This document shows, piece by piece, positions 29,302 to 53,809 of a stretch of DNA of 64,000 nt. Source of the stretch: Chitinophaga polysaccharea (GTDB lineage: Bacteria > Bacteroidota > Bacteroidia > Chitinophagales > Chitinophagaceae). The notes beneath the pieces were generated by a model that was not told the origin of the DNA, did no database searches, and saw only the letters and a program-made list of their open reading frames with translations. The stretch covers positions 496,001 through 560,000 of the forward strand of contig NZ_CABFVU010000004.1 in NCBI RefSeq assembly GCF_902150045.1. Direction: 5' to 3'. Positions within the stretch are counted from its first letter, which is position 1. The number at the start of each line of letters is the position of its first letter. Position numbers and translations under genes: made by a program.

Positions 29302-31173
29302 ATGAAACAATTTAACAACGCTCTGTTTATTCTCTGCTGTGTAATAGCCCTGCTGGTAAAAGCCACAGCAACAGCTGCGGCTGCACCGCCTATAGATACT
29401 ACACGGGGTGTGGTAGGCTATTATTTCCAGGACCCGCAGTCGGGCGGAAGCACTTTTACTACGCTGGTGTTCGACCGGGTGGATCCTAACTTCTGGTTTA
29501 ACTGGGGCGATGGCTCACCTGACCCGCGCATCACCAACGATCACTTCTCCGTTCGCTGGAAAGGATTGTTTCGTGTGCCCGTTACCGGTAGCTATACCTT
29601 TAACGCCAATGCAGACGATGGATTTAAGTTCACCATAAAAGATTACGCAAAAAGGGAAGCCGATCCGGGAACAGTGGTCATGAACAATAACGGGAACTGC
29701 TGCGCCGACTTTTCCGGTACTATCAACCTGGAAGCGGGTAAGCTGTATCCCGTGGAAATGGAGTTCACAGAGAACGGAGGCGGCGCCAATATCATGTACT
29801 TCAAATGGACGGGCCCCGGTATTCCCCAGCAGCAGGTGCCGGCGGAATACTTTTATGCACTGCTGCCACAGGCCGCTGCCCGTCCTAAAATAACACCTGA
29901 CCGGGGCCTGTTCGAAGACCATGTGGATGTTGTGCTGAGCACTACCACCGTGGGTGGTACTATCCGTTATACGCTGGATGGCACCGTGCCTACCATCAAT
30001 TCACCTGTATTCAATCCGTTAACAGATACGCTGAAGCTCACCAGCACCACTACCGTAAAGGCCAGTACCTGGATGAACAACATGTATGTATCGGAAGTAT
30101 CTACCGCATTGCTGAGCATTATGCCACCGGCTTTGCCCAACCCGGTATTCGTGCCTTCTGCCGGTATCTACAGCGATCCTATCAAGATGGCGATCAAAGT
30201 AGCAGCGCCCGGAGCCACCATTTACTACACAACAGACGGCAGCACGCCTACTACTGCATCACTGGTATACACCGATAGTATCCATATCGATTCCACCATG
30301 CGTATTAAAACCTTTGCGGTGAAAGAAGGCCGTTCCCCTTCACAGGTAATGGCTGCCACCTATACTATATTACCGGAGGGAGCAAAACAACCGGTATTCA
30401 GCGTGCCCGCCGGTAATTATAATGGCCCGCAGGAAGTGACCATCACCAGCGCCACACCCGGCGCCGTGATCCGCTACGCACTTAACGATAATGCGCTGAA
30501 CTCCAATTCACCGGTATATTCCAACCCGGTGAAGATCAATGCCACTGCTACCTTAAAAGCTTACGCCTCTGCCGGCGGGCTTACGGATTCAAAAGTAACC
30601 ATCGCTGCCTATGTGATCGGCAATAACGATGTGGCAGTAAGCACGCCCCAGTTCAGTTTCCCCGGCGGTACTTACAACGGCGCCAGGCAGGTAGGACTGT
30701 TCACCGATACAAAAGATGCAGTGATCTATTATACCACCGATGGCAGCACGCCGGACGAGAACGCTACTGCTTACTTTAACCTCATCCAGGTGAGCGACAG
30801 CCTTACCATTAAGGCCATCGCCATCAAACCCGGTATGAAAAATTCAGCGGTGGCGGAAGCTACTTATATCATCACAGGGGGAGGGAAAGACACCAGTCTT
30901 ATTAACACCAACCTGCCGCAGGGACGGTTATCCATTACGCCAAATCCCGCTACGGACCAGGCCAGGATCAGCTGGACGGGGATGATCAATACCCGGGAAG
31001 GTTATCGTGTGGTCATTACCGATAGCAGGGGAGCAGTGGTGAATACCACGCTCATCACCAGTGGTTATACCTATTATATCGTTAACACACAATCGCTGGC
31101 CGATGGCGTGTACTTCGTAAAAGTGCAATCCGGCAGCTCCGTGGTAAAAGGCAAACTGCTCATCTCCCATTAA
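29302..31173 (+). CDS. T9SS cargo: PA14 domain plus four chitobiase/beta-hexosaminidase C-terminal repeats
   Basis: 623 residues from the ATG at 29302 (signal peptide MKQFNNALFILCCVIALLVKA). Domains: PA14 (about 35-190; RVPVTGSYTFNANADDG and YPVEMEFTENGGGANIMYFKW), four CHB_HEX_C_1 repeats (about 198-275, 283-358, 364-441 and 450-527; IYYTTDGSTPT-type cores), and a T9SS type A sorting domain (about 540-623; ITPNPATDQARISW to KGKLLISH). There is no catalytic domain, so a surface glycan-binding or scaffolding role is likely. It is the first gene of a 12-gene run and the next gene is PorV, the shuttle that handles such C-terminal signals. Confidence 0.88.
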   Translation: MKQFNNALFILCCVIALLVKATATAAAAPPIDTTRGVVGYYFQDPQSGGSTFTTLVFDRVDPNFWFNWGDGSPDPRITNDHFSVRWKGLFRVPVTGSYTFNANADDGFKFTIKDYAKREADPGTVVMNNNGNCCADFSGTINLEAGKLYPVEMEFTENGGGANIMYFKWTGPGIPQQQVPAEYFYALLPQAAARPKITPDRGLFEDHVDVVLSTTTVGGTIRYTLDGTVPTINSPVFNPLTDTLKLTSTTTVKASTWMNNMYVSEVSTALLSIMPPALPNPVFVPSAGIYSDPIKMAIKVAAPGATIYYTTDGSTPTTASLVYTDSIHIDSTMRIKTFAVKEGRSPSQVMAATYTILPEGAKQPVFSVPAGNYNGPQEVTITSATPGAVIRYALNDNALNSNSPVYSNPVKINATATLKAYASAGGLTDSKVTIAAYVIGNNDVAVSTPQFSFPGGTYNGARQVGLFTDTKDAVIYYTTDGSTPDENATAYFNLIQVSDSLTIKAIAIKPGMKNSAVAEATYIITGGGKDTSLINTNLPQGRLSITPNPATDQARISWTGMINTREGYRVVITDSRGAVVNTTLITSGYTYYIVNTQSLADGVYFVKVQSGSSVVKGKLLISH

Positions 31174-31246
31174 AAAGAAAACAACGGCATCAACATTATA
31201 TAAATCATTTGAAATGACGTATCCAGGTTTTAATCAGGAAAAAAGT

Positions 31247-32431
31247 ATGTCTCAACCGGTATCACGCCTGTACCGGTGGATGGCCACGGGCCTGATAGGC
31301 ATCTCCCTGTTGCTGGCAGGGGAAAAGACCTCCGCGCAAATGGCCTACAGCAGCACCGATGGCCGTACCAATGCGGTCAGCAATGCGGTGCCGTTCCTGC
31401 GGATCACTCCCGACGCACGCCGCGCAGCCCTTGGCGATGCAGGCATCGCTTTGTCGCCCGATGCCAGCTCGGTGTTCTCCAATCTCTCCCAGATATCATT
31501 TGCTGAGGCAGAAAGGGCTGTTTCTGCGGGTTTTACTCCCTGGTTAAGGTCAATGGCCAACGATGTGTACCTGGCCGATATAGCGGCTTACAGGAAGCTG
31601 GATGAACAACAGGCGATAGGGGTAGGTTTCCGCTATTTCAGCATGGGCAGTATCCAGCTAACGGATTTCCAGGGAAACGACCAGGGAACGACACGGCCCG
31701 GCGAATTCTCCCTCGATGCGGGCTATACCCGCAGATTATCGGATCACTGGGCGCTGGGGGTAGCCTTCCGTTATATTCATTCCAAACTGGCATCCGGTCC
31801 CAAAGCCGGCGGTAACGGCGCTTACAAGGCAGGCAATGCCTTTGCCGGCGACCTGAGCGCCTCCTATACTTCGGTAACAGAATACGATGGCGGGCAGCAG
31901 GGCACCTGGCGCTTCGGCGCCGTGATGTCAAACATCGGCACAAAGATCTCTTACGCAACTGACAGCCGGGATAAGTATTTCCTCCCTGCCAATCTTGGTA
32001 TCGGTGGCGGCTATACGTACCAGCTGGATGATAAGAACACACTCACCCTCACACTGGATATCAATAAACTGATGGCGCCCACACCGGATAGCACAGATGC
32101 GGATAAGGACGGTACGCCCGACTTCAGGCAGAAAGGCATTCTCAGCGGCGTATCCGGCTCCTTTGGCGACGCTCCGGGCGGCCTTAAGGAAGAACTGCAT
32201 GAGCTGATGTATTCCACCGGCCTGGAATATACTTATGGCGGCCTGCTGGCGCTGCGCGCAGGATATTACAATGAGCACCGTACAAAAGGCAACCGGAAAT
32301 ACCTGGGCGCAGGATTCGGTTTGAAATATAAAATAGCGGGCTTCGATTTCTCTTACCTGGTTCCCGCCGGGGGAGATCCGCTGCACCCGCTGGCCAATAC
32401 ACTACGCATCTCCATTTCAGCAACATGGTAA
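31247..32431 (+). CDS. porV: Type IX secretion outer membrane protein PorV (LptO)
   Basis: About 394 residues: signal peptide (WMATGLIGISLLLAGEKTSAQ) followed by an outer membrane beta-barrel. VPFLRITPDARRAALGDAGIALSPDASSVF, SAGFTPWLRSMANDVYLA and VGFRYFSMGSIQLTDFQG are hallmark PorV segments, and the C-terminus ends in an aromatic strand (ISISATW). PorV receives T9SS cargo from the SprA translocon and delivers it to the PorU sortase complex. Finding it inside a SusCD operon directly after a T9SS cargo gene suggests a dedicated shuttle. An upstream ATG at 31214 is an alternative start; I chose 31247 for its purine-rich AGGAAAAAAG leader. Confidence 0.9.
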   Translation: MSQPVSRLYRWMATGLIGISLLLAGEKTSAQMAYSSTDGRTNAVSNAVPFLRITPDARRAALGDAGIALSPDASSVFSNLSQISFAEAERAVSAGFTPWLRSMANDVYLADIAAYRKLDEQQAIGVGFRYFSMGSIQLTDFQGNDQGTTRPGEFSLDAGYTRRLSDHWALGVAFRYIHSKLASGPKAGGNGAYKAGNAFAGDLSASYTSVTEYDGGQQGTWRFGAVMSNIGTKISYATDSRDKYFLPANLGIGGGYTYQLDDKNTLTLTLDINKLMAPTPDSTDADKDGTPDFRQKGILSGVSGSFGDAPGGLKEELHELMYSTGLEYTYGGLLALRAGYYNEHRTKGNRKYLGAGFGLKYKIAGFDFSYLVPAGGDPLHPLANTLRISISATW

Positions 32432-32477
32432 GGCGCAGGGTATTTAATATCATTTCTCATTTACAAAATATTAGTTT

Positions 32478-35400
32478 ATGCATTTCATAATGCGACGCTG
32501 TGTTATAGGTTTACTGGCAGGTGGTTTTGCGGCAGGAACAGCAGCGGCTGAAAACAGGATACTGCCGGCGCTGCCCGGCTACGCCACTCCGCAGGATACG
32601 GTGAAAAAGAAATTAAGTGAGAAGGAGAAAAGAGACAGTATCCGTAAAACAATGATCCCGGTAGATACCAATCACCTGAAGCCTGCATCTTTCAGAAGCA
32701 ATGGCATCGATATGGGCAAGGCGGCCATTTATCCCTATTCCTCCCTTCAGCAAATGCTGAAGGGCGAAGTGGCCGGCGTGTATATCCAGGAACCCAGCGG
32801 CGAGCCAGGTACTGAAATGGGCATGATGATCCGCGGCACCGCCATCCCGCTCACTTCCCATAACGATGTATACGATGCACAGCCCCTGGTGGTGCTGGAT
32901 GGTATTCCACTCATTATGGATCATCCCTTTGCCTTTGATATACAACAGTACGACTATAACCGCATAGGCCCCGCTACCAACCTGCTGGCGGCTATAGATC
33001 CCAATAACATCGCTTCCATTGAAGTGCTGAAAGATTATGCAGCCGCAGCTGTTTACGGTCCCCGTGCTGCCAACGGCGGGGTGATTTCCATCCGCACGAA
33101 AGCGCCGGTGATCGGCGGAAGAAAAATTGCTTTCAATACCTGGTTTGGTATCGCGCAAAAGCCTCATATCAATACTACCAATGCCAGGTTCGAAAATGAA
33201 TTCAGGCAACCGTACTATAACCGGTATGCCAGCCTGGATAACATACTTACCTACCCGGCATACCTCCGCGATTCTACCAATGATGCATACTATGGCGCCT
33301 CCGACTGGACGGATCTTTATTATGCCAATAAATTCGTCCGCGGTGTAAACGCCAGCATCTCCAGCGGATCAGAACGGGCCAACTTCCGCTTCGCCGCCGG
33401 CAACGAGCAGATGAATAACCCCGGCGATAACACCCGCATGGACCGCTACAACGCCATGTTTGAAATTAACATGGTGCCGGTGTCATGGCTTACCATGTCG
33501 GCCATGATCAACGCCACCCGCCTGGAGCGCCGCCGTAACCGCAACCTGCGCGACCGCTTCGCGGATGTACAATACCTCCCGGATCTCGGCTCCCCGCTGC
33601 CGCCCAATAAAGCGGCATACGGCGCCTATCTCACCGAGTATGATAAGTCCATCGATGAAAATAAGACCAACAGCATCAATGGGTTCTTTCGCCTGAAAGT
33701 GGCGTTCTCAAAAGACTGGAACTTTGTATCAGGCCTCGCGGCAGATTATAACGAAGGCCTGAGGGATGTGTTTTATCCCGGCACACTCATGGAAACGATC
33801 AACTATGTTTCCAATTATTTTGGCTATAACCAGCGCGTGAGCTTTAATAATACGCTCACCTTCCATCATAACTGGAATAATATACATGATGTGACAGCGG
33901 AGGCAGGCCAGGTATTTGAAGCGGATTTTAACCGCTATAATTACAGCTATGCCTACAACGGGCCTAACGATCTTATTAAGCTCAACCTGTTAAATTCTGA
34001 TCCGGGCAACGCCAATTACCTGCTGCCCAAAGCATTTAAGAGCGCGCTGGTATACATGGCGCTCGATAAGCAACGGCATCGTTTGTTGTCGTTTTACGGC
34101 CGTGGTATTTACCGCTATAAAGATGCGCTCGACTTTTCAGTGCTGGTACGCTCCGACGGTTCTTCCAGTATGCAATCCGATAACTGGTGGACAGTATCGC
34201 CCGCCTTCTCTGCGGGATGGAACCTGAAAAGTACCCTGCTGCCAGACCAGGAAGGCATTAATGCCATGCGGCTTCACGCCAGCTGGGGGCGCATCGCCCG
34301 CCTGCTTACAGACGACCGTTTCGGGGAAGGAACACAATATCTCTCCGATCTTTCTTTCAGCAACAACCCGCTGAAGTTTTCCTATAACGCGCTGGGCGCA
34401 TTGTCCAGGCCCTATTCCACCGGCTATGTGGGCAACAATATCAAATGGCCTTATTCAGACCAGCTGGACTTAGGACTGGATATAAGTTTCCTGCAGCAAC
34501 GCATCAATGTATCACTGGATGTATATGATAAAACAGATAAGAATATGCTGTTTAATATACCGGGTGGTAACGAATACGGCTATACGTCTGTTTATGAGAA
34601 CGGGTTGAAAGTACGAAACCGTGGCGCCGACCTGGGCATCCAGGCAAACGTATTGCCAAAAACAAGCAAGCTGCAATGGATCCCATCTGCCAATATTAAT
34701 TATAACCGGAATACACTGCTGGCATTACCCGGCGGAATTGATGAAATGCAGATCGGCACCGGTGCTGCTGCACGTAAGCTTAAAGTAGGCAGCGCTATCG
34801 ATCAGTTCTGGGTGCTGGAAAACCAGGGCATCTATAATCGGGAAAGAGATATCCCGGTAAATCCTAAGACAGGACAAACCCGCACCTATAAAGGAACACC
34901 GCTTTCTGCCGGAGATCCCATCTGGACAGATCAGAACAACGACAACACCATTGATGATAAGGACAAAGTAATGAAAGGGCACTACCTGCCAAAGGTATCC
35001 GGTGGCTTCAGCAGTGAATTTACTTACCGCAATATCACTTTCAGCTTCACACTGTACTATGCACTGGGTAAAAAGATCCTGAACCAGGATGTGGCCAGTC
35101 ACCTCGATTTTGTAAACCACGAAGGACAGATCTCCATGGATGCAGTGAAGGAAATTACCTTCTGGCAGAAGGTGGGCGACTATAACCGCTATCCCCTGTA
35201 TAATCCATGGAGCAAGGTAGGCGCTTACCGTGCAGACCAGGACCTGTTCCTGGAAGATGGCTCCTTCCTGAAGCTGCGGAATATTTCCCTGCAATATGAT
35301 TTTACAAAAACACGCTGGTGGAATAAGCGGTCGGTCTTACATGGCCTCACCGTATATGGCACGGCCAGCAATCTGTTCACCATATCGCCTTACACCGGCG

Positions 35401-35495
35401 GCGATCCGGAGCTCATTTATTTTAACGGCGTTGATAACGGGTATGGTCTTCCTATTCCGAAAACGTATACCCTCGGCGTAAAGATGGACCTGTAG
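32478..35495 (+). CDS. SusC/RagA-like TonB-dependent outer membrane protein lacking the N-terminal extension
   Basis: 1005 residues. After a signal peptide (CVIGLLAGGFAAGTAAA) comes a short charged linker (KKKLSEKEKRDSIRKTMIP) and then the plug domain (about 88-200; LQQMLKGEVAGVYIQEPSGEPGTEMGMMIRG, IEVLKDYAAAAVYGPRAANGGVI), followed by a 22-stranded barrel ending LGVKMDL. The carboxypeptidase-regulatory-like domain that precedes the plug in typical SusC proteins is absent and no VVVGYG-like TonB box is visible. Its SusD partner follows 30 bp later. Confidence 0.88.
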   Translation: MHFIMRRCVIGLLAGGFAAGTAAAENRILPALPGYATPQDTVKKKLSEKEKRDSIRKTMIPVDTNHLKPASFRSNGIDMGKAAIYPYSSLQQMLKGEVAGVYIQEPSGEPGTEMGMMIRGTAIPLTSHNDVYDAQPLVVLDGIPLIMDHPFAFDIQQYDYNRIGPATNLLAAIDPNNIASIEVLKDYAAAAVYGPRAANGGVISIRTKAPVIGGRKIAFNTWFGIAQKPHINTTNARFENEFRQPYYNRYASLDNILTYPAYLRDSTNDAYYGASDWTDLYYANKFVRGVNASISSGSERANFRFAAGNEQMNNPGDNTRMDRYNAMFEINMVPVSWLTMSAMINATRLERRRNRNLRDRFADVQYLPDLGSPLPPNKAAYGAYLTEYDKSIDENKTNSINGFFRLKVAFSKDWNFVSGLAADYNEGLRDVFYPGTLMETINYVSNYFGYNQRVSFNNTLTFHHNWNNIHDVTAEAGQVFEADFNRYNYSYAYNGPNDLIKLNLLNSDPGNANYLLPKAFKSALVYMALDKQRHRLLSFYGRGIYRYKDALDFSVLVRSDGSSSMQSDNWWTVSPAFSAGWNLKSTLLPDQEGINAMRLHASWGRIARLLTDDRFGEGTQYLSDLSFSNNPLKFSYNALGALSRPYSTGYVGNNIKWPYSDQLDLGLDISFLQQRINVSLDVYDKTDKNMLFNIPGGNEYGYTSVYENGLKVRNRGADLGIQANVLPKTSKLQWIPSANINYNRNTLLALPGGIDEMQIGTGAAARKLKVGSAIDQFWVLENQGIYNRERDIPVNPKTGQTRTYKGTPLSAGDPIWTDQNNDNTIDDKDKVMKGHYLPKVSGGFSSEFTYRNITFSFTLYYALGKKILNQDVASHLDFVNHEGQISMDAVKEITFWQKVGDYNRYPLYNPWSKVGAYRADQDLFLEDGSFLKLRNISLQYDFTKTRWWNKRSVLHGLTVYGTASNLFTISPYTGGDPELIYFNGVDNGYGLPIPKTYTLGVKMDL

Positions 35496-35525
35496 TATTA
35501 AATGAACTGCATAAAATGATTTTTG

Positions 35526-37103
35526 ATGAAGTATTTATCTTCCAATAATAAAAAATTCAACAGGACATATACGGCAAAATGGCTGTTGCTGTTATGTTTT
35601 TGCGGAGCGGCATTACAAAGCTGTAAGAAACTGCTGGATGTGGATTCCTCGCATGCCGTGGCAGAGAAGAATATGTGGAATTCGCATGAAGATACCCGCA
35701 GCGCACTGATAGGCGTATATGGCTTAACCCGCGCCGCACTGGCAGATAATAATGCCTTCTGGATGTACGGGGAATTGCGGAAAGGTGATTTTGCTGCTGT
35801 ACAGCGCCAGGATATAGATGCAGTGGTCAGCAACAACCTGCACGCACCACTGGATATGCTCAATGAGCTTTCTAACTGGCGCCGCTTTTTTGCGGTAGTG
35901 AATGCCGCCAATCTTTTCCTGGAACATGTAGGAGAGGTAAAAGCAAGAGATCCCCGCTACAGTGAGCAGAACATGGCGGTAGACATTGCTCAGATCCGTT
36001 TCCTAAGGGCATTTGCTTACTTTAATATGGTGAGGGTTTGGGGAGATGTGCCGCTGATCACTACCTCCCATGATGGTGAATTTACTGATCAGCCAAGAGC
36101 GCCACAGGGAAAAGTACTGGCATTCATTGAACAGGAATTACAGGCGGCAGCGGATAATTTGCCTTATGCCTACAGCGCCAACGATCCGCAGCAGCAGGGC
36201 GACTACTACGCCGAAGGCGGTGATAAATGGAACGGCGTACTGGCACGCAAGCTCAGTGCATATGCACTCATGGCGCATGTAGCAGCCTGGCAGGCAAAGT
36301 ACTCTCTCGTAGCCGCCTATACGAAATTTGTGCTCGACAATGCACAGAAAAGCTCGCTCGTGTTTGTGAAAACAGATCAGCTCACCAGTTCCAATGGTTT
36401 CTTTTCAGGAAGAGGCTCCAATAACTTTATCAATAACCACATGATTGCGTTCGACTTTGAGTTCACCAACGGCGAAGCATCCTATACCGGCCACCTGGAA
36501 GAGCTTACGCTGGCTGCGCCGGTGGTATCTAAAAGCCAGCCGGAGATCTATGTGCCGAAAGATACCATCCTTTCCCTCTTCGATCAGAACCGCGATGAAC
36601 GTTTCAGCCTGGATAGTATCAGGGGTGAGCCCACCAGCACCCGGTACTTTACCAGCTTCGACAGTCATGTACCTATCTTCTCCAAAATAAAAGTAATACT
36701 CGATGGAGGCACCTCTGATCCTGATTTCCGCATGTACGGCAGCGCTATCATTTTCACCCGCCTGGAAGATATTGCCCTGCTGAGAGCCGAAGCGCTGGCT
36801 GTACTGGGAGAACAAACCGGTGCTATTGACCTGCTGAACCAGATCCGCGATCTCCGTGTAATGGAACGCTACGATGCCGGTAAGGAAGGCGACCTGTTAA
36901 ACGCCATCTTCCGGGAACGTCGCAAGGAACTGATGGGAGAAGGACAACGCTGGTTTGACCAGGTGCGCTATCATAAACTGAAACGCAGCGATGCCGCATT
37001 CAACCGCCTCATTGATGAAGGTGGGATCTACTGGCCCGTGGCGGAAAATGTATTGATGCAGAACAAACAGCTTACCCAGAATATTTACTGGATCAACAGG
37101 TAA
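35526..37103 (+). CDS. RagB/SusD family surface lipoprotein (first pair)
   Basis: 525 residues with lipobox ALQSCKK (C33). The SusD fold is clear: N-terminal TPR helices (IRFLRAFAYFNMVRVWGDVPLITTS) and the C-terminal DIALLRAEALAVLGEQTGAIDLLNQIRDLR and RRKELMGEGQRWFDQVRYHKL motifs. SusD proteins bind glycans outside the cell and form a lid on the SusC channel. I start at the ATG at 35526; a TTG directly before it is in frame. Confidence 0.93.
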   Translation: MKYLSSNNKKFNRTYTAKWLLLLCFCGAALQSCKKLLDVDSSHAVAEKNMWNSHEDTRSALIGVYGLTRAALADNNAFWMYGELRKGDFAAVQRQDIDAVVSNNLHAPLDMLNELSNWRRFFAVVNAANLFLEHVGEVKARDPRYSEQNMAVDIAQIRFLRAFAYFNMVRVWGDVPLITTSHDGEFTDQPRAPQGKVLAFIEQELQAAADNLPYAYSANDPQQQGDYYAEGGDKWNGVLARKLSAYALMAHVAAWQAKYSLVAAYTKFVLDNAQKSSLVFVKTDQLTSSNGFFSGRGSNNFINNHMIAFDFEFTNGEASYTGHLEELTLAAPVVSKSQPEIYVPKDTILSLFDQNRDERFSLDSIRGEPTSTRYFTSFDSHVPIFSKIKVILDGGTSDPDFRMYGSAIIFTRLEDIALLRAEALAVLGEQTGAIDLLNQIRDLRVMERYDAGKEGDLLNAIFRERRKELMGEGQRWFDQVRYHKLKRSDAAFNRLIDEGGIYWPVAENVLMQNKQLTQNIYWINR

Positions 37104-38762: not shown

Positions 38763-38781
38763 GGTTAACAGATCAAGTAAA

Positions 38782-43051: not shown

Positions 43052-43080
43052 GATAAATGTTTATTTAAAAGTTATTGATC

Positions 43081-44600: not shown

Positions 44601-45326
44601 ATGAACTCACTGAAAAAATATAGTCTGCATGGAGCAGTATGGCTGATGATCGCACTCACTGCATTGTCTTCCTGTAAAAAAAACAATTACTATCTCGACT
44701 CCGGGCTGGCAAACCCTTACTTCGATGGCAATGTAGTGGATTACCTCAACGCAAAGCCATTCTATTTCGATTCAGTAGCAGCTATTGTAAAGCTGGCGGG
44801 CATGGAAGAGATCTTCACTTCCGATACCGTCACCTTTTTTGCGCCTACTGATTACAGTATCCAGAACCTTATCAAATCCACCAACAACGCATTATACAGC
44901 GGTGGCTTTGATACCATCCGCACCCTGCAGGACGTGCCGGCGGAGATATGGCGTAAGTATTTGTCGGTATACATTTTCCATGGCGCCAACCAGCTGAAGG
45001 ATTACCCGCAGATCGATTACAGCCTGCTGATCAATTTCCCCGGGCAGATGTACTATTCCTGGGATAACCAGCCAATGAACATCGGCGTGATCTATAATTC
45101 GGATAATGGAGTAAAGTATGTGGGATACCGCCAGCTCAGTATTTCCTACATCCCTGATGCAGCGGCGCCAACAGCTAACTGGACCACTTCCCTGGTAGCT
45201 TCCTGCAACATACTCACTAAGAACGGGGTAGTACATGTACTGAGCGCCAACCACGCCACCTTCGGATTTGCCCCCGGCAAATTTGCCCAGGACGTACAGG
45301 CCGTATTCGCAAATTCCGGTAAGTAA
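44601..45326 (+). CDS. Fasciclin-domain lipoprotein
   Basis: 241 residues with lipobox ALSSCKKN (C25) and a single fasciclin domain (about 40-225): TVTFFAPTDYSIQNLI, YLSVYIFHGANQL and the closing NILTKNGVVHVLSANHATFGF. No carbohydrate-binding module is attached, unlike the fasciclin protein at 37143. It follows the second SusD by 11 bp, so each SusD in the locus is followed by a fasciclin lipoprotein. Confidence 0.85.
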   Translation: MNSLKKYSLHGAVWLMIALTALSSCKKNNYYLDSGLANPYFDGNVVDYLNAKPFYFDSVAAIVKLAGMEEIFTSDTVTFFAPTDYSIQNLIKSTNNALYSGGFDTIRTLQDVPAEIWRKYLSVYIFHGANQLKDYPQIDYSLLINFPGQMYYSWDNQPMNIGVIYNSDNGVKYVGYRQLSISYIPDAAAPTANWTTSLVASCNILTKNGVVHVLSANHATFGFAPGKFAQDVQAVFANSGK

Positions 45327-45339
45327 AATTTTATATCCA

Positions 45340-46941
45340 ATGAGATGCATGCAAAAATATTATAACGCACTTCTTTTGTCCGGCCTTTGCATGATGCTGC
45401 TGGGAAGTTGTAAGAACAACAGGGAGAAAGTGTATGACGACCCTTATGCCGGCGGTAAGCCCGCCCTGGGTATCAGGATGAGCACCGATTTCCCGGCGCC
45501 ACGACTGGGAGATCCCGGCAGCACCGTTACCTTTAAAGCAACAGGACTGATGCCTTACAGATCGGACCTGCAATTTTTTATCAACAGCGAACGTGCAGAG
45601 GTGGTATCTGTAGACAGCTCCGGCATCAAGGTAAAAGTACCTGAAAATGCCAGCACCGGTATCGGTTATGTAACTATTGGCGATCGTATCGTGTTTGGGC
45701 CCGTGTTTCGCGTAAATGGAAAACTTACTTCCGATAACACCTTCAAGGCGCTGGTGGGTTCCAACGGCTATATCAGCAAAGTGCTGCCTCTGGCCGATGG
45801 GCGGATGATCCTGGTGGGAAGCTTTTCCAACTATGAAAACAAAGGGTCGGTAAAACCGCTGAACCGTATTATTCTTATTTCCAAAGATGGGGAACTGGAC
45901 CGCTCCCTCCAGATCGGAGATGGGGTAGGAGGTTACCTGAATACCATAACCACGCTGCCCAACGGCAAAATGGTGATTGGCGGGGGCTTCTCCACTTATG
46001 ATATCCACCTTGGCGAAGTGAACAACATCACGGTGCTGAACAGCAACGGTACTATTGACAGTATGGTGGTAAGAACCTTCCTCGACCGGGATACCGTGCC
46101 AGCCTTCAACGGCGGCGTGGATGGCAATATCCAGCGCGCATTTGTACATGGTAATACCATCACCGCTACCGGCAACTTTAACTTCTACCTGCAACGGGTA
46201 TACGGAAAATCAGATTACCGCGCTAAACGCGATTCTCTTATAGTGGATTCAGTAAGAATTAAAAACCTGGTACGCTTCTTTGCAGACGGATCACTGGACT
46301 CCTCTTTCAACTATAACTTCCTGCTGCACCGCAGCAACGATGGTCCCAACGGCCCGGTGAACGACGCCTTTATGCAGGAAGACGGGAAGCTGATCATTGC
46401 CGGGCGCTTCACCAGGTATAACAACGAATCCGTGAACTACATCGTTCGCCTGAATACAGATGGCACCATTGACCGTACTTTCAAAGTTGGCACAGGCGCC
46501 GATAACTATATTTCATCCATCACTTATAATGAAGCTACCCGCCGGTTTATGCTGTCGGGTAACTTTACCAGTTTCGATGGAAAGGTACAGAACGGGCTGG
46601 TAATGCTGAATGAAGATGGCTCCGTGGACCCTTCCTTCAAAGGCGCTGCAAAAAATTCTGACGACAACTATGCTTATGCCAAACAACTATCCAATGGTAT
46701 GGTGCTGGTGAGCGGCTATTTCAAAAACTACGGCGGTGTTCACCGAGGGCATTTTATGCTGCTGGATCATACCGGCGCATTGGCCAGGGGCTACAATACC
46801 ACCGGCGACCTGGATGGTATTGTGAACGGCGTGCTGGAAACAAGAAATTTCGCTGGACAGCTGCAACTGCTTATCACCGGAGGGTTTGGCAAGTTTGATG
46901 AACAACCCGCCGGCAACATCACCAGGCTTTTACTAAAATGA
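45340..46941 (+). CDS. DUF5008 lipoprotein with delta-60 repeats
   Basis: 533 residues from the ATG at 45340; lipobox MLLGSCKN (C24). An IPT/TIG-like N-terminal domain (about 45-125; PGSTVTFKATGLMPYRSDLQFFI, GIKVKVPENASTGIGYVTI) is followed by a beta-propeller of delta-60 repeats (SKVLPLADGRMILVGSFSNY, NGKMVIGGGFSTY, NDAFMQEDGKLIIAGRFTRYN, LNTDGTIDRTFKVGTG). The combination is the DUF5008 family found in SusCD loci; the function is unknown, but propellers with TIG domains usually bind ligands at the surface. It starts 13 bp after the fasciclin gene. Confidence 0.82.
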   Translation: MRCMQKYYNALLLSGLCMMLLGSCKNNREKVYDDPYAGGKPALGIRMSTDFPAPRLGDPGSTVTFKATGLMPYRSDLQFFINSERAEVVSVDSSGIKVKVPENASTGIGYVTIGDRIVFGPVFRVNGKLTSDNTFKALVGSNGYISKVLPLADGRMILVGSFSNYENKGSVKPLNRIILISKDGELDRSLQIGDGVGGYLNTITTLPNGKMVIGGGFSTYDIHLGEVNNITVLNSNGTIDSMVVRTFLDRDTVPAFNGGVDGNIQRAFVHGNTITATGNFNFYLQRVYGKSDYRAKRDSLIVDSVRIKNLVRFFADGSLDSSFNYNFLLHRSNDGPNGPVNDAFMQEDGKLIIAGRFTRYNNESVNYIVRLNTDGTIDRTFKVGTGADNYISSITYNEATRRFMLSGNFTSFDGKVQNGLVMLNEDGSVDPSFKGAAKNSDDNYAYAKQLSNGMVLVSGYFKNYGGVHRGHFMLLDHTGALARGYNTTGDLDGIVNGVLETRNFAGQLQLLITGGFGKFDEQPAGNITRLLLK

Positions 46942-46965
46942 TTGTTACTTCTAATCCACAGACAC

Positions 46966-48726
46966 ATGCAGAAAAATAAATCAATATGGCTCAACGGGAT
47001 GATGGTATTACTGCTGGGTGGGCTTGTGAGCTGGACCGCCTGCAATAAAGAGCCCGACCGGGTGCTGGAGCGGGGCGATTATACCGATACCACCAGCGCC
47101 ATCGTAAAAAATCCAAAGGTACTGTTCGTGATCATGGATGGGGCCAGGGGGCAGTCGGTACGCGATGCCAATGCCCCCAACATCAGCGCGCTTACTGATC
47201 ATGCCATCTTCAGCTGGAACTCCGTTACAGACACAGATATAGGCGATCTCACCACCTGGGCCGACCTGCTTACCGGCGTGCACAAAGCCAAGCATAGCAT
47301 TGAAGGCAATACCATGGATAATAACAACCTGAACAACTTCCCCGTTTTCTTTAAACGTATTAAAGAAAGGGCGTCGGGCATTCATATCGCCGCCTATAGT
47401 TCCTCTGATGCATTAGGTAGTAATCTTATTACCGGTGCAGATATAAACAAAGTGTTTGCAGATAATGATGAAGCCACTACTACTGCTGCAGTGGCCGGCC
47501 TGGCGGCAGACAGCGCCGGACTGGTAATGGTGCAGTACAATAACGTGGATGCCAGCGGCAAACAGTATGGTTATGATCTCAGCGTACCGCAATACCGCAA
47601 TGCCATCCTGCAAACGGATGATTATATCGGCAAACTGCTCAATGCCGTAAAAGCACGTAAAACCTATGCCGGCGAGAACTGGATGGTAGTAGTAGTGAGT
47701 AATCACGGTGGCGCCTATACGATACCGCCTACGGAAGATGATCATACTATTCTCAGCGATCCGAAAACGAACGGGTTTATCATTTACTCCACACCGGTGT
47801 ATCTCCCTTCTTTTATAGATAAACCATATACGGGTAACCGTTATATAGGCAAAGGCGTGCACCTGTATGGAACAGATGCAAATGCTGTGTATGCCACTAT
47901 TGATGATGTGAACCGTAACTATGACCTGAAAGATACCCGCGGTATGGCCCTGGAAATGAAGATCAAGGTGATGCCCGGCGCCAACGGCGATTATACCTAC
48001 TCCAATACTTCCGTGCTATCCAAAAGGGCCTCCCTTGATCCTGGTGTGCAGGGGTGGGCCGTAGTGCTGAACCAGAAAGGATGGCAGCTGAACATAGGAC
48101 AAAATGCTCCCGGAAGAACAGACAATATGATCGTGAATGGCGCAGATATCAGTGATGGCAACTGGCACGATATCGCCGCACAGTTCGTATACGATACTTC
48201 TGCGCAAACCATGCATGTAAGAACCTTTACCGATGGGAAGTTCAACAACGATATCAATATCACCGGCTACAGCAACCTGAATAATGCTGCACCGCTGCGA
48301 CTGGGCTACCTGCCCTATGCAGGTAGCTATCCGGCCCCGGATGTATACATAACGGAGCTGAAGGTATGGGACAGCACCGCTACAGACCAGGTGATCAGCG
48401 ATTACGCCTGTGAAACCAGTATGTCGGCCACCCATCCTTTAAGGAAGCAGCTCACGGGCTACTGGCCGGCCACCGACGGACAGGGTCCCGTACTGAAAGA
48501 CAAAAGCGATAACCTGTCCGATTTTAAACTGAACGGCCCTTACGGATGGTTCAACTTCAACGACCTGATCTGCCCCGCTTCACCGGCTAATATTGCCCAG
48601 CTGATGCCGCAGCCCATAGATGTAAGCAGGCAGATCCTCGACTGGCTACAGGTTTCCGCAGATCTGCGCTGGAACCTCGACGGGAAAGTATGGACCACCA
48701 GGTATGTAAGCATGAATAACAATTAA
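46966..48726 (+). CDS. Phosphodiesterase/alkaline-phosphatase-fold lipoprotein with LamG-like and DUF4983 domains
   Basis: 586 residues; lipobox VSWTACNK (C26). Residues about 50-320 have the nucleotide pyrophosphatase/alkaline phosphatase fold: LFVIMDGARG (metal-ligand D58), a TTWADLLTG nucleophile-loop equivalent at 96-104, NVDASGKQYG at 193-202 and VVVSNHGG at 243-249. Where active enzymes have D-x2-GH and SDHG, this protein has GK and SNHG, so two metal ligands appear changed. A LamG-like jelly roll (about 330-480) and a DUF4983 tail follow. It may bind rather than cleave. Confidence 0.78.
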   Translation: MQKNKSIWLNGMMVLLLGGLVSWTACNKEPDRVLERGDYTDTTSAIVKNPKVLFVIMDGARGQSVRDANAPNISALTDHAIFSWNSVTDTDIGDLTTWADLLTGVHKAKHSIEGNTMDNNNLNNFPVFFKRIKERASGIHIAAYSSSDALGSNLITGADINKVFADNDEATTTAAVAGLAADSAGLVMVQYNNVDASGKQYGYDLSVPQYRNAILQTDDYIGKLLNAVKARKTYAGENWMVVVVSNHGGAYTIPPTEDDHTILSDPKTNGFIIYSTPVYLPSFIDKPYTGNRYIGKGVHLYGTDANAVYATIDDVNRNYDLKDTRGMALEMKIKVMPGANGDYTYSNTSVLSKRASLDPGVQGWAVVLNQKGWQLNIGQNAPGRTDNMIVNGADISDGNWHDIAAQFVYDTSAQTMHVRTFTDGKFNNDINITGYSNLNNAAPLRLGYLPYAGSYPAPDVYITELKVWDSTATDQVISDYACETSMSATHPLRKQLTGYWPATDGQGPVLKDKSDNLSDFKLNGPYGWFNFNDLICPASPANIAQLMPQPIDVSRQILDWLQVSADLRWNLDGKVWTTRYVSMNNN

Positions 48727-48737
48727 TTATTTACAGG

Positions 48738-50192
48738 ATGATAAATACAATAAAGTTCCCGCCCGCAATACTGCTGGTAAGCTGCCTGGCGGCACTGGCG
48801 CTGTCTTGTAAAAAGCCCGACATCAAAGGAGAAGAGATCACCGTACAACAGGTTGATGTTGCCTTTAAAAGCGACAACGGGCTGATAAAGATCCCTACGG
48901 GCGACAGCAGCTATACAAAGAATGATGCCACTGTAGATATACCGCTGAAGATCCAGCTGTCGGATGCAGCGCCCTCAAGATTTGATATAGGCGTTACCGT
49001 TAATACGGATACGGTGGCCGGCATGATTGCCCGTAACCAGATCCCCGGCGGCGCGCTGCTGGAACAGGACGCCTACAGCCTGCCTAACCTGGTAAACGTG
49101 CCCTTTGGTCGTGAAGAAGCCACCTTTACCCTGAAAGTAAGCCTGGCTTCTTTCGAAAAATACTATGGCAAAACACTGGCCCTGGCAGTAGCGCTTACCG
49201 GTCCTACCAAAAACAATAAGCTGGATGCCGCAAAGAAGATCGTAGTAGTGCAGATCAATACCACCAGCATTGTACCGGTAGGCCAGATCCACTATGTGTA
49301 TTACCCCGATAATGGTAAATCCATACAGGTGCCTGCAGTACGCGGAAAGAACTATACTGTAGGACCGGGCACCCTGCAGGTACCGGTGAATGTAAGCTAT
49401 ACCAGCAGCGCTGGTCCTTCGTTTTACCTGAGGGTAAAACCCAATACAGATACCATTGCCAAACTGCTGACAGCGAATGGTTTGCCCGGTACGGAAGCGC
49501 TCACTGCAGCGGATTTTGCCCTGCCGGATTCTATCTCATTCAAAGATTTTAATAATTCATTGTCGTTTCCCGTTACTGTGAAATTGTCGGCCCTCCTGGC
49601 GCACCCTGGAAAAAAAGTGGCGCTGGCGGTGGATATCACCGATCCATCTATCTACAAAATAGATACTACAAAGAAAACAATGGTGATAGTAATAGATGCC
49701 TCGGGTCTTAAATACAACCCGTATTCCGGTACGGCGTTGCAGCTGCCCGCAGGCGTGGGCGCTTCGGTGACCATTAAGGCGGCAGATTTTGACCTCGGCG
49801 GAGAAGGATGGGGCTATCACGAAACCACAGACAACAATATTCCCGGGACCTACCGTCCCAATGAAGGCGTGGATATTGAAGGCAACGGCGCCAACATCGG
49901 TTTCACTGCCGATGGCGAATGGCTGAAATACAGCGTGGAAGCGCCCGCGGAAGGAGACTACGACATTGCCATTGCTATTACCACTCCCAATGGCGGCGAC
50001 CGCGGACTGCATATAGAAGTAGACGATGTAAACCAAACCGGCAGGATCCCTTTCACCAACACAGGGGGCTGGGGCAACTGGGTGTATCTGCACGGCAACC
50101 TGCATCTCACACCAGGCAAGCACCTGGTGAAGTTTGTATGGGAAACCGGCGATACCAACCTGCGGGATTTTATATTCACCCGTAAAAATTAA
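48738..50192 (+). CDS. DUF1735 (x2) lipoprotein with C-terminal CBM6-like domain
   Basis: 484 residues with lipobox ALALSCKKP (C24). Two consecutive DUF1735-like domains (about 35-165 and 180-325) repeat the same elements, including TVNTDTVAGMIARNQIPGGALL and VKPNTDTIAKLLTANGLPGTEAL. The C-terminal domain (about 345-484) carries GGEGWGYHE, YRPNEGVDIEG, GEWLKYS and GKHLVKFVWETG, matching the CBM6-like modules in the fasciclin protein at 37143. Likely a surface glycan-binding protein. Last gene before a strong terminator. Confidence 0.85.
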   Translation: MINTIKFPPAILLVSCLAALALSCKKPDIKGEEITVQQVDVAFKSDNGLIKIPTGDSSYTKNDATVDIPLKIQLSDAAPSRFDIGVTVNTDTVAGMIARNQIPGGALLEQDAYSLPNLVNVPFGREEATFTLKVSLASFEKYYGKTLALAVALTGPTKNNKLDAAKKIVVVQINTTSIVPVGQIHYVYYPDNGKSIQVPAVRGKNYTVGPGTLQVPVNVSYTSSAGPSFYLRVKPNTDTIAKLLTANGLPGTEALTAADFALPDSISFKDFNNSLSFPVTVKLSALLAHPGKKVALAVDITDPSIYKIDTTKKTMVIVIDASGLKYNPYSGTALQLPAGVGASVTIKAADFDLGGEGWGYHETTDNNIPGTYRPNEGVDIEGNGANIGFTADGEWLKYSVEAPAEGDYDIAIAITTPNGGDRGLHIEVDDVNQTGRIPFTNTGGWGNWVYLHGNLHLTPGKHLVKFVWETGDTNLRDFIFTRKN

Positions 50193-50198
50193 TTAACG

Positions 50199-50237
50199 CA
50201 TGGGATTGTTCAACCGGAACAATCCCATGTTTTTTTT
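50199..50237 (+). terminator. Strong intrinsic terminator
   Basis: A perfect 13-bp stem (CATGGGATTGTTC at 50199-50211, GAACAATCCCATG at 50217-50229), a 5-base loop and eight Ts at 50230-50237. It starts 6 bp past the DUF1735-CBM6 stop and ends 23 bp before the next ATG, leaving little room for a new promoter. Confidence 0.9.
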
Positions 50238-50260
50238 CTCCATGAAAACTTAATCCGCGT

Positions 50261-53200
50261 ATGAAAACTATCTTACACAACCCTCCCAGAATCTGTATGC
50301 TGCTTTTTGTTTTTGTCCTGTTGCCTTTTATACAGGTAACCGCGCAAACATGGCAACTGATTAATCCATTGTACCCTACAAAAGATGCTTTTGTGGCAGC
50401 TTACAATGTAGCCAATTACGGCGCCACCGGCGACGGTGTTACCGATGTAACAGCCATTTTCCAGAACAGGCTCGACACCCTGCGTATCCTCGGGGGCGGT
50501 ACGCTGTTTGTGCCCCAGGGCAAATACAAAATCAGCGGCAACCTGGTGATCCCCAAAGGCGTTACCATCCGCGGGGAATGGCAGAAGCCCGTAAAAGGAC
50601 AGCCGGTCACCGGCACCATCCTCATGGCCTATGCTGGCCGGGGTGACGAAAATGCAGCAGCCTTTATTACCATGGAGCCCTCTTCCGCAGTAATGGATAT
50701 GGCTATCTGGTACCCTGAACAGTTGCCTGGCAGTATCACACCTTATCCGCCGGCTATCCTGTTTGGTAAGCCCAATTATTTTGGCAACGACTACTGTAAC
50801 ACCAAGAACGTAACTTTTGTGAACGCCTACAGCGGGGTCGTGTTTTCCCGTGTCAACGGCGGTAGCTGCCCCATTATCAACGGTCTTTATGGCACACCGC
50901 TTTCCCGTGGTATTGAAATAGATAACATTGCGGATGTAGGGCATATGGAAAGCATCGATTTTTCTCCTGCATATTGGTCGGGCTCTGGTCTTGCCAACGC
51001 ACCCGCTGCCGGCAGCTCCTTTGAAGGCTGGATTTACCAGAACGGTACCGGTATTGTAATGAGAAGAAACGACTGGTCGTACACCTGTTTCGTAAATATT
51101 GAAGGATACAACAAGGGATTTCATGCAGCCCCTTCGCTTGCTACCGTTGGCTCTATTCCCAATGGACATAATTACGGCATGACCTTCACCAATTGTAAAA
51201 CCGGTATTTACCTGGAAGTGGTAAGCTCAGACGGTATCATGTTTGCCCGTTGTAATACAGTTTCCTGCGAAACCGGGGTAGCCATTGCTTCCGGTACTTC
51301 CGGCACCGCGCAGTTCCACACCTGCACATTGGGCGGAACACTGAACGGCCTTACTGTAGATCCTTCCTCCACTACACGAACCATGATGGAGCAATGCACC
51401 ATCACCAAAGGAAAAGTAGATATCGGCGGCGGCACGCTCCTGGCATCCGACAATGATTTCAACAACAACCAGCCGCAGATTATGCTGGGCAATAATTCCA
51501 GGGGCATCATCACCGGTAACCGTTTCTCCAAGGGGGTGAATATCCAGAACAATTCGCTCTACACCAGCACCATTGATCATACGCCGCTTACGCTGAAACC
51601 ATTACCTGTATTCCCGGATGTAAGCAGTGAAACGAAGAAGCCGTCGAGGGCCGTATTGTATGTTGCCACCAAAGCGCCTTTCAATGCTGTGGCCGATGGT
51701 ACTACAGATAATACCACGGCCCTGCAGTCGGCGCTCAACAAGGCATCTCAGGATGGAGGCGGTATCGTGTTCCTGTCCCCAGGGAAATACAAGGTAACCG
51801 GGCATCTTACAGTGCCTTCCGGCGTGGAGTTGAAAGGAGCGTCCGATCTTAGCTCGGTGCCTATGGGGCCTGGTAGTATTATAGAAGTGTATGCAGATAA
51901 GAACAACGCAGCGGGCGCACCTTTCCTCAAACTATCTGCCAATAGTGGTGTCAGGGGAATGACCTTCAATTACCCGGAGCAGGTGTATTCCAATCTGCCA
52001 AATGCACCGGCCTATCCCTACCTGATACAGGTAACCGGCAGCGATGCCTATATTGTGAATGTAGGTATGCGCGCCACTTACAGCGGCATCGATCTGTTCA
52101 CCTATAAATGCGATAACCATTACCTCGACTTCGTTGCAGGGCACGTATTTAAAAACGGCATTCGCGTTGGAGGAAATTCTGCCGGAGGCAAAATTTATAA
52201 TCTCCAGTTCAATACCATTGTATATGCGGCAGGTGCAGAATCAAAGTTTGGCAGCTGGCCCAACTCGCCCACCGGCAACAATTCCGGCGCATATGATTAC
52301 AATTATGCCAACCTCGATTTCCTCACGCTGGGCAATTGCCAGGGCGAAATATTGTACAACGATTTTGTGTTCGGTTCCCACAGTGGTATTGTATTAAAGT
52401 CTGAAAACGGCAGCGGTCCATCTGGTTTAAGCCTGGGATTAGGTATTGATGGCTCCCGCAACAGCATGCGCTTTGAAGGTTCTTCCGGCAGTGGTATGGA
52501 CTTTATCAATACACAGGTAGTAGGGTATGGGGATACCACTACTACGTATATTTCCACGCAACCCACTTATACCGGCGCTTCCACCTTCTTTAACTCCGAC
52601 TACTGGGGCAACCCCGGCAAAGGGCTTATCATGAATGGTGGCACTATTAACATGCAGCAGGCAAACTTCCATCATCCGGGCCAGTTAAGATGGGCTAATA
52701 TCAGCAATGGCTCGCTGAATGTGCACAACTCTGCCATCTGGTCTGTAGGGTCGCTGCTGAATACAGGCGCAGGCCCGCATTTGTCGGCACGCTCCTCCAT
52801 CATCGACAGTACCCAGCTATCAACCAACACCGCCGCTTTATGGAAAAATAACCTCGGCAATATCTGGGGCGTTTCCATAGTGGGCGCTATGGACCGCCAG
52901 GGCTGGACGGCCACCGCATCCGTGAACAGCGGCAGCGCGCAGAATGCGCTGGACAGCAATGCCGTCACCCGCTGGGATACACAAGGCTCCCAGGTGAACG
53001 GGCAAACATTTACCGTAGATATGAAAACGGTAAATACTTTTCACGCTATTGTGCTGGATGTAACAGGCAGCCCGGACGATTCGCCTGCCGGCTACAGCAT
53101 ATACACATCCGGCGACGGCATAAATTGGGGCAGCCCCATTGCCACCGGCGTAGGCAACACCGGCATGACACTGGCCGCTTTCACGGATAAAACCGGCAGG

Positions 53201-53809
53201 TATATCAAAATAGTGCAAACCGGCGCCAAAGGCAATTACTGGTCCATACACGAGCTGTATGTTTTTGGTAAGGTAGATGTAGCCAGTGTGAGTGTAACGC
53301 CGGTATCGGCCCGTATAAAGGTGGATTCCTCCTTGCAGTTAACCGCCACTATCCTGCCGGCAAAGGCTACCAACAAAGCTAAGGTATGGAGCTCCAGCAA
53401 TACGGCCATAGCTACGGTCGACAGCACGGGCAAAGTAAAAGCAAAGAGCGCCGGCGTGGCCGTTATCACTGTTACTACGGTGGATGGCAATAAAACTGCC
53501 ACCTCTTCAGACACGGTATATTCCACCGCCTTCATAAAAGCCCCGCCCGCTGGTGATATTTTCGTATATCCGAACCCGGTAACCGCAGGCCGTGTGCTGC
53601 TGCAGTTCAGGGATGGCCCTGCCGGCAGGTACCAGCTGCGCCTGTTGAATTACATAAACCAGCCAGTGTATACTGCTACGGTAAATGTAACGGATAAGCG
53701 TACACCGGTAACGTTGCAATGGGGCAATAAAGTGTTGCCAGGATATTATTTACTGGAAGCAACGCATACCAGTGGACGGCGTTTGGTAAAAGCGGTGGTG
53801 ATACAATAA
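50261..53809 (+). CDS. Tandem beta-helix (GH55/pectate-lyase-3-like) T9SS enzyme with discoidin and Big2 domains
   Basis: 1182 residues. Signal peptide (LLFVFVLLPFIQVTAQ); first right-handed beta-helix from about 42 (NYGATGDGVTDVTAIFQNRL, GGGTLFVPQGKYKISGNL); second from about 470 (FNAVADGTTDNTTALQSAL, GGGIVFLSPGKYKVTGHL); an F5/8 type C domain (about 870-1005); a Big2 Ig-like domain (about 1008-1090); a T9SS sorting domain (about 1098-1182, YPNPVTAGRVLLQF to LVKAVVIQ). Two tandem helices each opening with a Pectate_lyase_3 motif are the hallmark of GH55 beta-1,3-glucanases, but specificity is unproven. It is the only likely polysaccharidase in the locus. Confidence 0.83.
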   Translation: MKTILHNPPRICMLLFVFVLLPFIQVTAQTWQLINPLYPTKDAFVAAYNVANYGATGDGVTDVTAIFQNRLDTLRILGGGTLFVPQGKYKISGNLVIPKGVTIRGEWQKPVKGQPVTGTILMAYAGRGDENAAAFITMEPSSAVMDMAIWYPEQLPGSITPYPPAILFGKPNYFGNDYCNTKNVTFVNAYSGVVFSRVNGGSCPIINGLYGTPLSRGIEIDNIADVGHMESIDFSPAYWSGSGLANAPAAGSSFEGWIYQNGTGIVMRRNDWSYTCFVNIEGYNKGFHAAPSLATVGSIPNGHNYGMTFTNCKTGIYLEVVSSDGIMFARCNTVSCETGVAIASGTSGTAQFHTCTLGGTLNGLTVDPSSTTRTMMEQCTITKGKVDIGGGTLLASDNDFNNNQPQIMLGNNSRGIITGNRFSKGVNIQNNSLYTSTIDHTPLTLKPLPVFPDVSSETKKPSRAVLYVATKAPFNAVADGTTDNTTALQSALNKASQDGGGIVFLSPGKYKVTGHLTVPSGVELKGASDLSSVPMGPGSIIEVYADKNNAAGAPFLKLSANSGVRGMTFNYPEQVYSNLPNAPAYPYLIQVTGSDAYIVNVGMRATYSGIDLFTYKCDNHYLDFVAGHVFKNGIRVGGNSAGGKIYNLQFNTIVYAAGAESKFGSWPNSPTGNNSGAYDYNYANLDFLTLGNCQGEILYNDFVFGSHSGIVLKSENGSGPSGLSLGLGIDGSRNSMRFEGSSGSGMDFINTQVVGYGDTTTTYISTQPTYTGASTFFNSDYWGNPGKGLIMNGGTINMQQANFHHPGQLRWANISNGSLNVHNSAIWSVGSLLNTGAGPHLSARSSIIDSTQLSTNTAALWKNNLGNIWGVSIVGAMDRQGWTATASVNSGSAQNALDSNAVTRWDTQGSQVNGQTFTVDMKTVNTFHAIVLDVTGSPDDSPAGYSIYTSGDGINWGSPIATGVGNTGMTLAAFTDKTGRYIKIVQTGAKGNYWSIHELYVFGKVDVASVSVTPVSARIKVDSSLQLTATILPAKATNKAKVWSSSNTAIATVDSTGKVKAKSAGVAVITVTTVDGNKTATSSDTVYSTAFIKAPPAGDIFVYPNPVTAGRVLLQFRDGPAGRYQLRLLNYINQPVYTATVNVTDKRTPVTLQWGNKVLPGYYLLEATHTSGRRLVKAVVIQ

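Follow-up and report, generated by a model that had tools for sequence, protein, structure and literature searches.

A conserved dual SusC/SusD gene set of Chitinophaga polysaccharea, probably for glycan capture and import, joined upstream by a type IX secretion cargo and a PorV paralogue

Why does an operon with two SusC/SusD pairs also carry a type IX secretion system (T9SS) cargo and a PorV of its own, and what would such an assembly be for? The question is raised by thirteen forward-strand genes (g1 to g13; Table 1) of the soil bacterium Chitinophaga polysaccharea, which lie in a stretch of 64,000 nucleotides (assembly GCF_902150045.1, contig NZ_CABFVU010000004.1, positions 496,001 to 560,000), called the window below. 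Gene calling together with Pfam and NCBIfam scans of the window recovered all thirteen in this genome of 7.62 Mb. An earlier note on the same DNA had described a series with gaps of 11-73 bp, the last gene standing beyond a terminator, in which a PorV, two SusC/SusD pairs with a fasciclin protein after each SusD, and proteins of DUF and CBM6 type follow one another. This outline holds, with intergenic gaps of 0-46 bp, which vary with the start codon chosen, and of 68 bp across the terminator. We favor, with moderate confidence, the reading that this is a polysaccharide utilization locus (PUL) with dual SusC/SusD (SusCD) pairs that would capture and import an arabinogalactan-type ligand and that has gained a T9SS cargo together with a dedicated PorV.

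The core of the locus is of an already known kind. Two neighbouring pairs of a SusC-like TonB receptor and a SusD-like lipoprotein make it a SusCD-type PUL of the dual sort, and it is the cargo and PorV upstream that are unusual. A profile search led to 79 DUF5007 loci in Chitinophaga, Pedobacter, Mucilaginibacter, Niabella, Sphingobacterium and others, drawn from the best 80 of 85 confirmed relatives of the DUF5007 query, a sample in which close relatives are favored and in which DUF5007 is present by construction, since it was the query, while the other seven genes are not. The order SusC1-SusD1-Fas1-DUF5007-SusC2-SusD2-Fas2-DUF5008 (g3 to g10) was contiguous on one strand in 77 of these loci by open reading frame (ORF) calling, and tblastn recovered the gene missed by the ORF picker in the other two (L115 and L141). 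An eight-gene order that recurs in 79 of 79 loci goes beyond chance, and all four loci that were read in a further genus, which the Rfam Bacteroides-1 RNA suggests is Bacteroides, show it too. For these eight genes, the mapping of gene order across the Bacteroidota, which the earlier note had proposed as a check, came out in favor of a conserved unit.

Within the module the genes are tightly packed (539 gaps, median 11 bp), and when nine gene families are compared by their pairwise distances the correlation r is 0.86-0.97, values that partly mirror a common species history. The two SusC proteins, SusC1 and SusC2, belong to separate types, the ratio of own to other bit score being at least 2.0 in 79 of 79 SusC1 and at least 3.0 in 79 of 79 SusC2 proteins. 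A phosphodiesterase-like gene comes ninth in 66 loci; tblastn found none in the metagenome-assembled genome (MAG) L082. DUF5007 is matched in 49 of 60 whole genomes of the window's genus and, at E 1e-20 or better, in 3 of 395 genomes drawn across the phylum; short partial matches occur elsewhere in the genus. Three Chitinophaga relatives share the downstream neighbours (an AI-2E-type transporter and others), so that in them the locus occupies a single chromosomal place. We regard the core as an old, nearly invariant surface gene set, whose probable role is to capture pieces of plant arabinogalactan-type glycans and import them. Because its capture module (fasciclin, DUF5007, DUF5008, inactive phosphodiesterase) holds a single order across distant Bacteroidota, structures of the Bacteroides thetaiotaomicron homologues would be informative for the others as well. 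The C. polysaccharea genome also holds a second, shorter dual-SusCD/DUF5007 module (G000:C1:515000-534000, L057), which lacks g1, g2 and g11.

The gene content supports binding and import rather than digestion, as the earlier note had proposed. By Pfam no glycan-degrading enzyme is encoded in g1 to g12, such matches being confined to g0 (weak) and g13 at the edges, and two lipoproteins of the window, g5 and g12, carry CBM6 domains. The g11 protein has the fold of the alkaline phosphatase superfamily, and its active site has been lost, as it has in the homologues compared: neither the Asp of the DHG motif nor the His of the GH motif (one row gapped) is kept in any of 84 distinct homologues, and the DHG His is kept in 16 of the 84. 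Since g11 has lost its metal ligands, a phosphorylated polymer, one of the two substrates suggested earlier, is unsupported and was rejected.

The gene that follows the phosphodiesterase-like gene mostly takes one of two forms. Among 77 modules it encodes a BT_3987-like_N (DUF1735) protein in 34 and an M60-like protein in 35, with neither within the 10-kb flank in 8 (by profile, with Pfam on representatives). The window operon has no M60-like gene, and g12 occupies that place. The fasciclin protein is short (<300 amino acids, aa) in 29 of 35 M60-type modules and longer in 34 of 34 DUF1735-type modules; the longer one of the window carries CBM6. A zinc motif, HExxH, was present in 4 of 13 M60-like proteins examined (L208, L162, L170 and L172) and absent from those of the inferred Bacteroides genus (3/3) and of Niabella (6/6). 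The proteins without it (L115, L124, L131, L134, L138, L143; L199, L205, L207) suggest a shift from peptidase to binding protein. In a few M60-type modules (L162:14517-18998, L167, L170, L172) two more degenerate phosphodiesterase-like genes stand after the M60-like gene, three per module.

Upstream of the core, g1 ends in a type-A T9SS sorting tail by both PF18962 (38.1 bits, cut-off 27) and TIGR04183 (30.2 bits, cut-off 23). The neighbouring g2 passes the PorV equivalog cut-off and has a PDB relative in the PorV chain 6h3i_F (E 3.6e-68). Three PorV-family genes of this genome exceed that cut-off, namely the porU-adjacent one (L055), g2, which is 52% identical to this canonical PorV, and a third whose neighbour is a short T9SS-tail gene (L056). 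The claim that the locus has a PorV of its own is therefore supported, the porU-porV pair being kept separately. The g1-g2 pair stands directly upstream of the core in the window and in four of the 79 loci (C. arvensicola, C. silvatica, C. terrae and a MAG from a different genus of the Chitinophagaceae), and all five cargos bear a T9SS tail, four by a home-made profile and that of the MAG by TIGR04183. Genes like g2 (72% identity or more) occur in 4 of 79 genomes of the genus, C. polysaccharea included, and a family sample of 394 genomes adds one, at 59%, in another genus. Identities to g1, g2 and g3 in the four relatives are 81/84/87, 61/71/71, 60/72/72 and 47/57/64%, so that PorV (57-84%) diverges at about the rate of the core (64-87% for SusC1) and g1 (47-81%) somewhat faster. 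In a tree the PUL-associated PorVs form one clade (support 99/96); beside it stands a PorV copy of genome G053, then 28 Chitinophaga PorVs presumed canonical, the PorU neighbour being confirmed in C. polysaccharea alone, and a long-branch warning applies to the more distant paralogues. Because the pair is syntenic in four relatives and its PorVs form a single clade, the chance insertion in one strain that the earlier note had named as a refutation is excluded; g1 and g2 are inherited together with the core.

Pairing of a cargo with a PorV is wider than this locus. We considered 31 further Chitinophaga PorV copies outside the canonical type, spread over 28 regions and hand-picked from 87 weaker matches listed (fragments included) together with the G053 copy. 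In 26 of the 31, the same-strand gene directly upstream has a T9SS tail by the home-made seven-sequence profile; for comparison, tail matches in the whole 7.6-Mb genome number 29. No such neighbour was recorded for the remaining five, L063, L064, L230, L231 and L232, the cargo of the last sitting one gene further off. All three cargos scanned with NCBIfam pass TIGR04183 (L210, L221, L056), and all four copies scanned pass the PorV cut-off (L210, L221, L059, L056). The order SusC-SusD-large protein-PorV is seen in L210 and in L063/L221/L222/L223, the L063 cargo having no tail match, and from these layouts cargo-PorV units seem to have been joined to SusCD more than once. Two further observations concern single groups. 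Giant T9SS proteins of about 2400-3000 aa with a type-A tail, followed directly by a PorV paralogue, are found in other Chitinophaga (L059, L060, L061, L213-L219; that of L217 is cut by the contig start) and may be large surface adhesins, each with a shuttle of its own. In G053, a single run (L210:9526-19001) joins SusC, SusD, a 2065-aa T9SS cargo with a weak metzincin match, and PorV, possibly a peptide-import system with its own secreted protein. For type-B cargo, clustering of the genes with their PorP/SprF is usual, and a role in shielding tails from cleavage has been suggested for cognate PorV-like barrels, according to the passages concerned (PMC10202324). We put forward tentatively, as an idea that may well not hold, that PorV is not a single shared shuttle: many paralogues in the Bacteroidota would be dedicated to the type-A cargo they stand behind, some pairs would have entered SusCD operons on more than one occasion, uncleaved cargo held on its own PorV would present glycans or peptides to SusCD, and dead hydrolases (g11, some M60-like proteins) would serve as lectins.

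What the ligand might be is suggested by Bacteroides. Of 119 genomes from the inferred Bacteroides genus, 5 have a PF16398 match, and in the four loci read of these five the core order is followed by a gene of about 700 aa and then by a second phosphodiesterase-like gene. The 700-aa gene is M60-like by Pfam in the two loci scanned, and by place and size in the other two. In L202, the one such locus scanned for it, the gene immediately before the core encodes a hybrid two-component system (HTCS) regulator, and glycoside hydrolase genes are close by (three GH43 genes near the G1085 locus, GH43 beside that of G1075, GH35 near that of G995). In B. thetaiotaomicron, as far as the published tables and passages go, BT0267 is an HTCS and BT0268 a SusC (PMC6874557; PMC5061871), BT0269 is a SusD, DUF5007 and a second SusD fall within BT0269-75, BT0277 is carbohydrate-binding and BT0278 belongs to the alkaline phosphatase family (Table 6, PMC10434189). 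Arabinogalactan is given as the primary substrate of BT0262-90 by Martens et al. (Table 2, PMC3243724), and arabinogalactans are listed for BT0267 in Table 1 of PMC3878776. Because the core layout matches BT0267-BT0278 within this PUL, a likeness that rests on layout and published gene names and not on BT sequence, an arabinogalactan-type glycan (or glycopeptide) would be the best guess at the substrate. The presence of the same module in an arabinogalactan PUL also points away from the beta-glucan-like polymer that was the other substrate suggested earlier (PMC3243724; PMC5061871; PMC6874557; PMC10434189).

We picture the system as follows. The two SusC/SusD pairs would import the ligand, which the fasciclin, DUF5007, DUF5008-propeller, dead phosphodiesterase and DUF1735-CBM6 lipoproteins would capture, presumably as one surface assembly. 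The type-A cargo and the duplicated PorV were gained at the 5′ end, probably in an ancestor shared by some Chitinophaga species and a genus close to them. In this arrangement g2 would act as the dedicated acceptor of g1, with its PA14 domain and chitobiase repeats, from the T9SS translocon, and would then either deliver g1 to the sortase or hold it uncleaved near SusCD as an extra binding arm.

Several observations weigh against this picture. Firstly, as to the substrate, the names published for BT0269-75 mention DUF5124 and not fasciclin or DUF5008, and the table in which they stand reports the BT locus as lower under iron depletion (PMC10434189). A flank survey of 66 proteins (59 representatives, minus an antisense ORF in L141, plus eight likely enzymes picked by eye) found no arabinogalactan-degrading enzyme conserved beside the module outside the Bacteroides loci; among the 25 of 127 families listed, no GH family (GH35, GH127, GH92) matched more than two of the proteins. 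Because no such enzyme is conserved beside the module there, we infer the substrate in Chitinophaga from homology. In the window lineage the core has no neighbouring HTCS and the operon lacks an M60-like gene, and GH43 and isomerase genes upstream of the operon are shared with C. arvensicola only, of three Chitinophaga relatives checked. Secondly, as to the pairing, 75 of 79 modules have no g1-g2 directly upstream (in 74 the stretch is visible; the L137 locus begins at SusC1). The 31 other PorV copies are not 31 events, since they fall into few orthologue groups (giant repeat, 168-aa and about 1800-aa proteins, and others), and the tail profile, built on seven sequences, missed one true tail (L054).

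The alternative that survives best, a possible though rather doubtful one, is that the ligand is an O-glycosylated protein (an arabinogalactan-protein, an extensin, or a bacterial or fungal glycoprotein) imported as glycoprotein or glycopeptide, which the M60-like protein would cut in relatives and which the window lineage would only bind. It draws on the M60-like genes in 35 of 77 modules (profile) and in both scanned inferred-Bacteroides loci (Pfam), on the weak metzincin match of the T9SS cargo behind SusCD in L210 (65 bits, cut-off 208), and on the M60-like BT4244, an O-glycopeptidase in a mucin PUL for which SusCD glycopeptide import is proposed in the passages describing it (PMC11992087). 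However, all the M60-like proteins of the inferred Bacteroides genus and of Niabella that were examined are devoid of HExxH, the window operon has no such gene at all, and in what has been published the B. thetaiotaomicron PUL was profiled on larch arabinogalactan.

It is unlikely, in our judgement, that the locus is a plain PUL with a bystander, in which g1-g2 would be a separate cargo-PorV unit fixed upstream yet functionally untied, the canonical PorV being able to serve g1. The many modules that do without the pair would fit this, as would PorV paralogues that stand beside a cargo with no SusC/SusD profile match in the region fetched (L056, L061, L214-L219). Yet g2 lies 40 and 46 bp from its two neighbours on the same strand, the pair has been kept in five species of two genera at core-like divergence, and SusC-SusD-cargo-PorV layouts recur elsewhere, as described above. 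Quite improbable is the beta-glucan system toward which the earlier note leaned, in which CBM6 and the GH55-like protein would mark a beta-1,3-glucan substrate: CBM6 is present on g5 and g12 with beta-glucanase modules among its PDB relatives and g13 is a GH55-like twin beta-helix, but CBM6 binds many glycans, g13 does not adjoin the operon in three of four syntenic relatives, Pfam finds no glucanase domain in g1 to g12, and the B. thetaiotaomicron homologue belongs to an arabinogalactan PUL.

If the locus is indeed a dual-SusCD PUL with a gained cargo and a dedicated PorV, it ties T9SS secretion to SusCD import in a concrete way that can be put to the test, and both are major surface systems of the Bacteroidota. 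Moreover, the cargo-specific PorV paralogues that it suggests would extend the pairing of type-B cargo with PorP/SprF to type-A cargo.

Table 1. Features of the Chitinophaga polysaccharea locus, in window coordinates
Feature	Coordinates	Strand	Description
GH43 gene	20146-21768		GH43
Isomerase-like gene	22711-24135		L-arabinose/L-fucose isomerase-like
g0	27077..28312	+	GH71/99-like secreted protein; PF16317 E 2.3e-5, under its cut-off (weak)
g1	29302..31173	+	Secreted cargo: PA14, four chitobiase/Fn3-associated repeats, T9SS type-A tail; PF07691, PF13290, PF13287, PF18962
g2	31214..32431	+	PorV paralogue; NCBIfam equivalog NF033710, 422.8 bits (cut-off 250)
g3	32478..35495	+	SusC type 1 (C1); Pfam Plug
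g4	35523..37103	+	SusD type 1 lipoprotein (D1); PF07980, PF14322; LQSC lipobox
g5	37143..38762	+	Fasciclin lipoprotein with two CBM6 (F1); PF02469, PF03422 in two stretches; CBM6 relatives in PDB
g6	38764..39855	+	DUF5007 lipoprotein, beta-sandwich domains predicted; alternative ATG start 38782
g7	39902..43051	+	SusC type 2 (C2) with CarboxypepD_reg domain; PF07715, PF00593, PF13715
g8	43075..44589	+	SusD type 2 lipoprotein (D2); PF07980, PF14322
g9	44601..45326	+	Fasciclin lipoprotein (F2); PF02469 26.3 bits (cut-off 22); LSSC lipobox
g10	45340..46941	+	DUF5008 and DUF5122 beta-propeller lipoprotein; PF16400, PF17164; LGSC lipobox, start at in-frame ATG
g11	46942..48726	+	Phosphodiesterase/alkaline-phosphatase fold, catalytic site lost, with LamG/DUF4983 domain
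g12	48738..50192	+	BT_3987-like_N (DUF1735) and CBM6 lipoprotein; PF08522, PF03422
Intrinsic terminator	50198..50230	+	Stem of 14 pairs, loop of 5 bases, T run; strong
g13	50261..53809	+	GH55-like twin beta-helix, F5/8C, Big_2, probable T9SS tail; PF12708 (two stretches), PF00754, PF02368; accessory

The edges of the locus are less constant. The g0 gene, which the earlier note omitted, travels with the cassette in three of four syntenic relatives: an orthologue 73-87% identical stands in the same position in C. arvensicola, C. silvatica and C. terrae, and none was found in the MAG contig. In a PDB search its best matches had E values of 0.023 or worse. The proposal of T9SS tails at both ends stands for g1 but not firmly for g13, whose tail has no match in Pfam or NCBIfam scans and is graded probable because it was found solely by the home-made profile (E 5.9e-4; 3.6e-5 for the C. 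arvensicola orthologue). An orthologue of g13 adjoins the operon in C. arvensicola only, among the four syntenic relatives, and g13 was rejected as a core gene. The GH43 and isomerase-like genes at 20-24 kb were likewise not accepted as members of the system, as they follow the locus in C. arvensicola only (three relatives).

With regard to known systems, the closest likeness is to BT0262-90, in which, by the published names, DUF5007 separates two SusD proteins and an alkaline-phosphatase-family protein lies toward the 3′ end, and to the inferred-Bacteroides genomes, which show the full order with a fasciclin-type F2, a DUF5008-type propeller, the phosphodiesterase, an M60-like gene and a second phosphodiesterase. 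The window has the order C1-D1-F1-5007-C2-D2-F2-5008-phosphodiesterase of this kind, and we file the core module as shared; the whole locus we do not file as a PUL of the BT0262-90 type, because the accompanying GH43/GH35 and HTCS genes are not matched here, where no HTCS is adjacent and a single GH43 gene lies 7.5 kb upstream. Compared with BT0262-90, the window operon has neither HTCS nor M60-like gene and has instead CBM6, the DUF1735-CBM6 protein, and the T9SS cargo with PorV. The mucin PUL BT4240-50 of B. thetaiotaomicron likewise brings together SusCD, a DUF1735 surface binding protein and an M60-like peptidase, but it has a single SusCD pair and a host mucin substrate, and fasciclin, DUF5007, DUF5008 and PorV go unmentioned in the passages on it (PMC11992087). 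With the canonical PorU-PorV unit, which C. polysaccharea retains, g2 shares its equivalog family, but it is a diverged duplicate next to g1 and not next to the sortase. The clustering of a cargo gene with its own PorV-like outer membrane barrel recalls SprB/SprF as described in the passages concerned, where a type-B cargo is paired with PorP/SprF (PMC10202324); here, by contrast, the tail of the cargo is of type A, the barrel belongs to the PorV equivalog family, and the pair is located in a SusCD operon.

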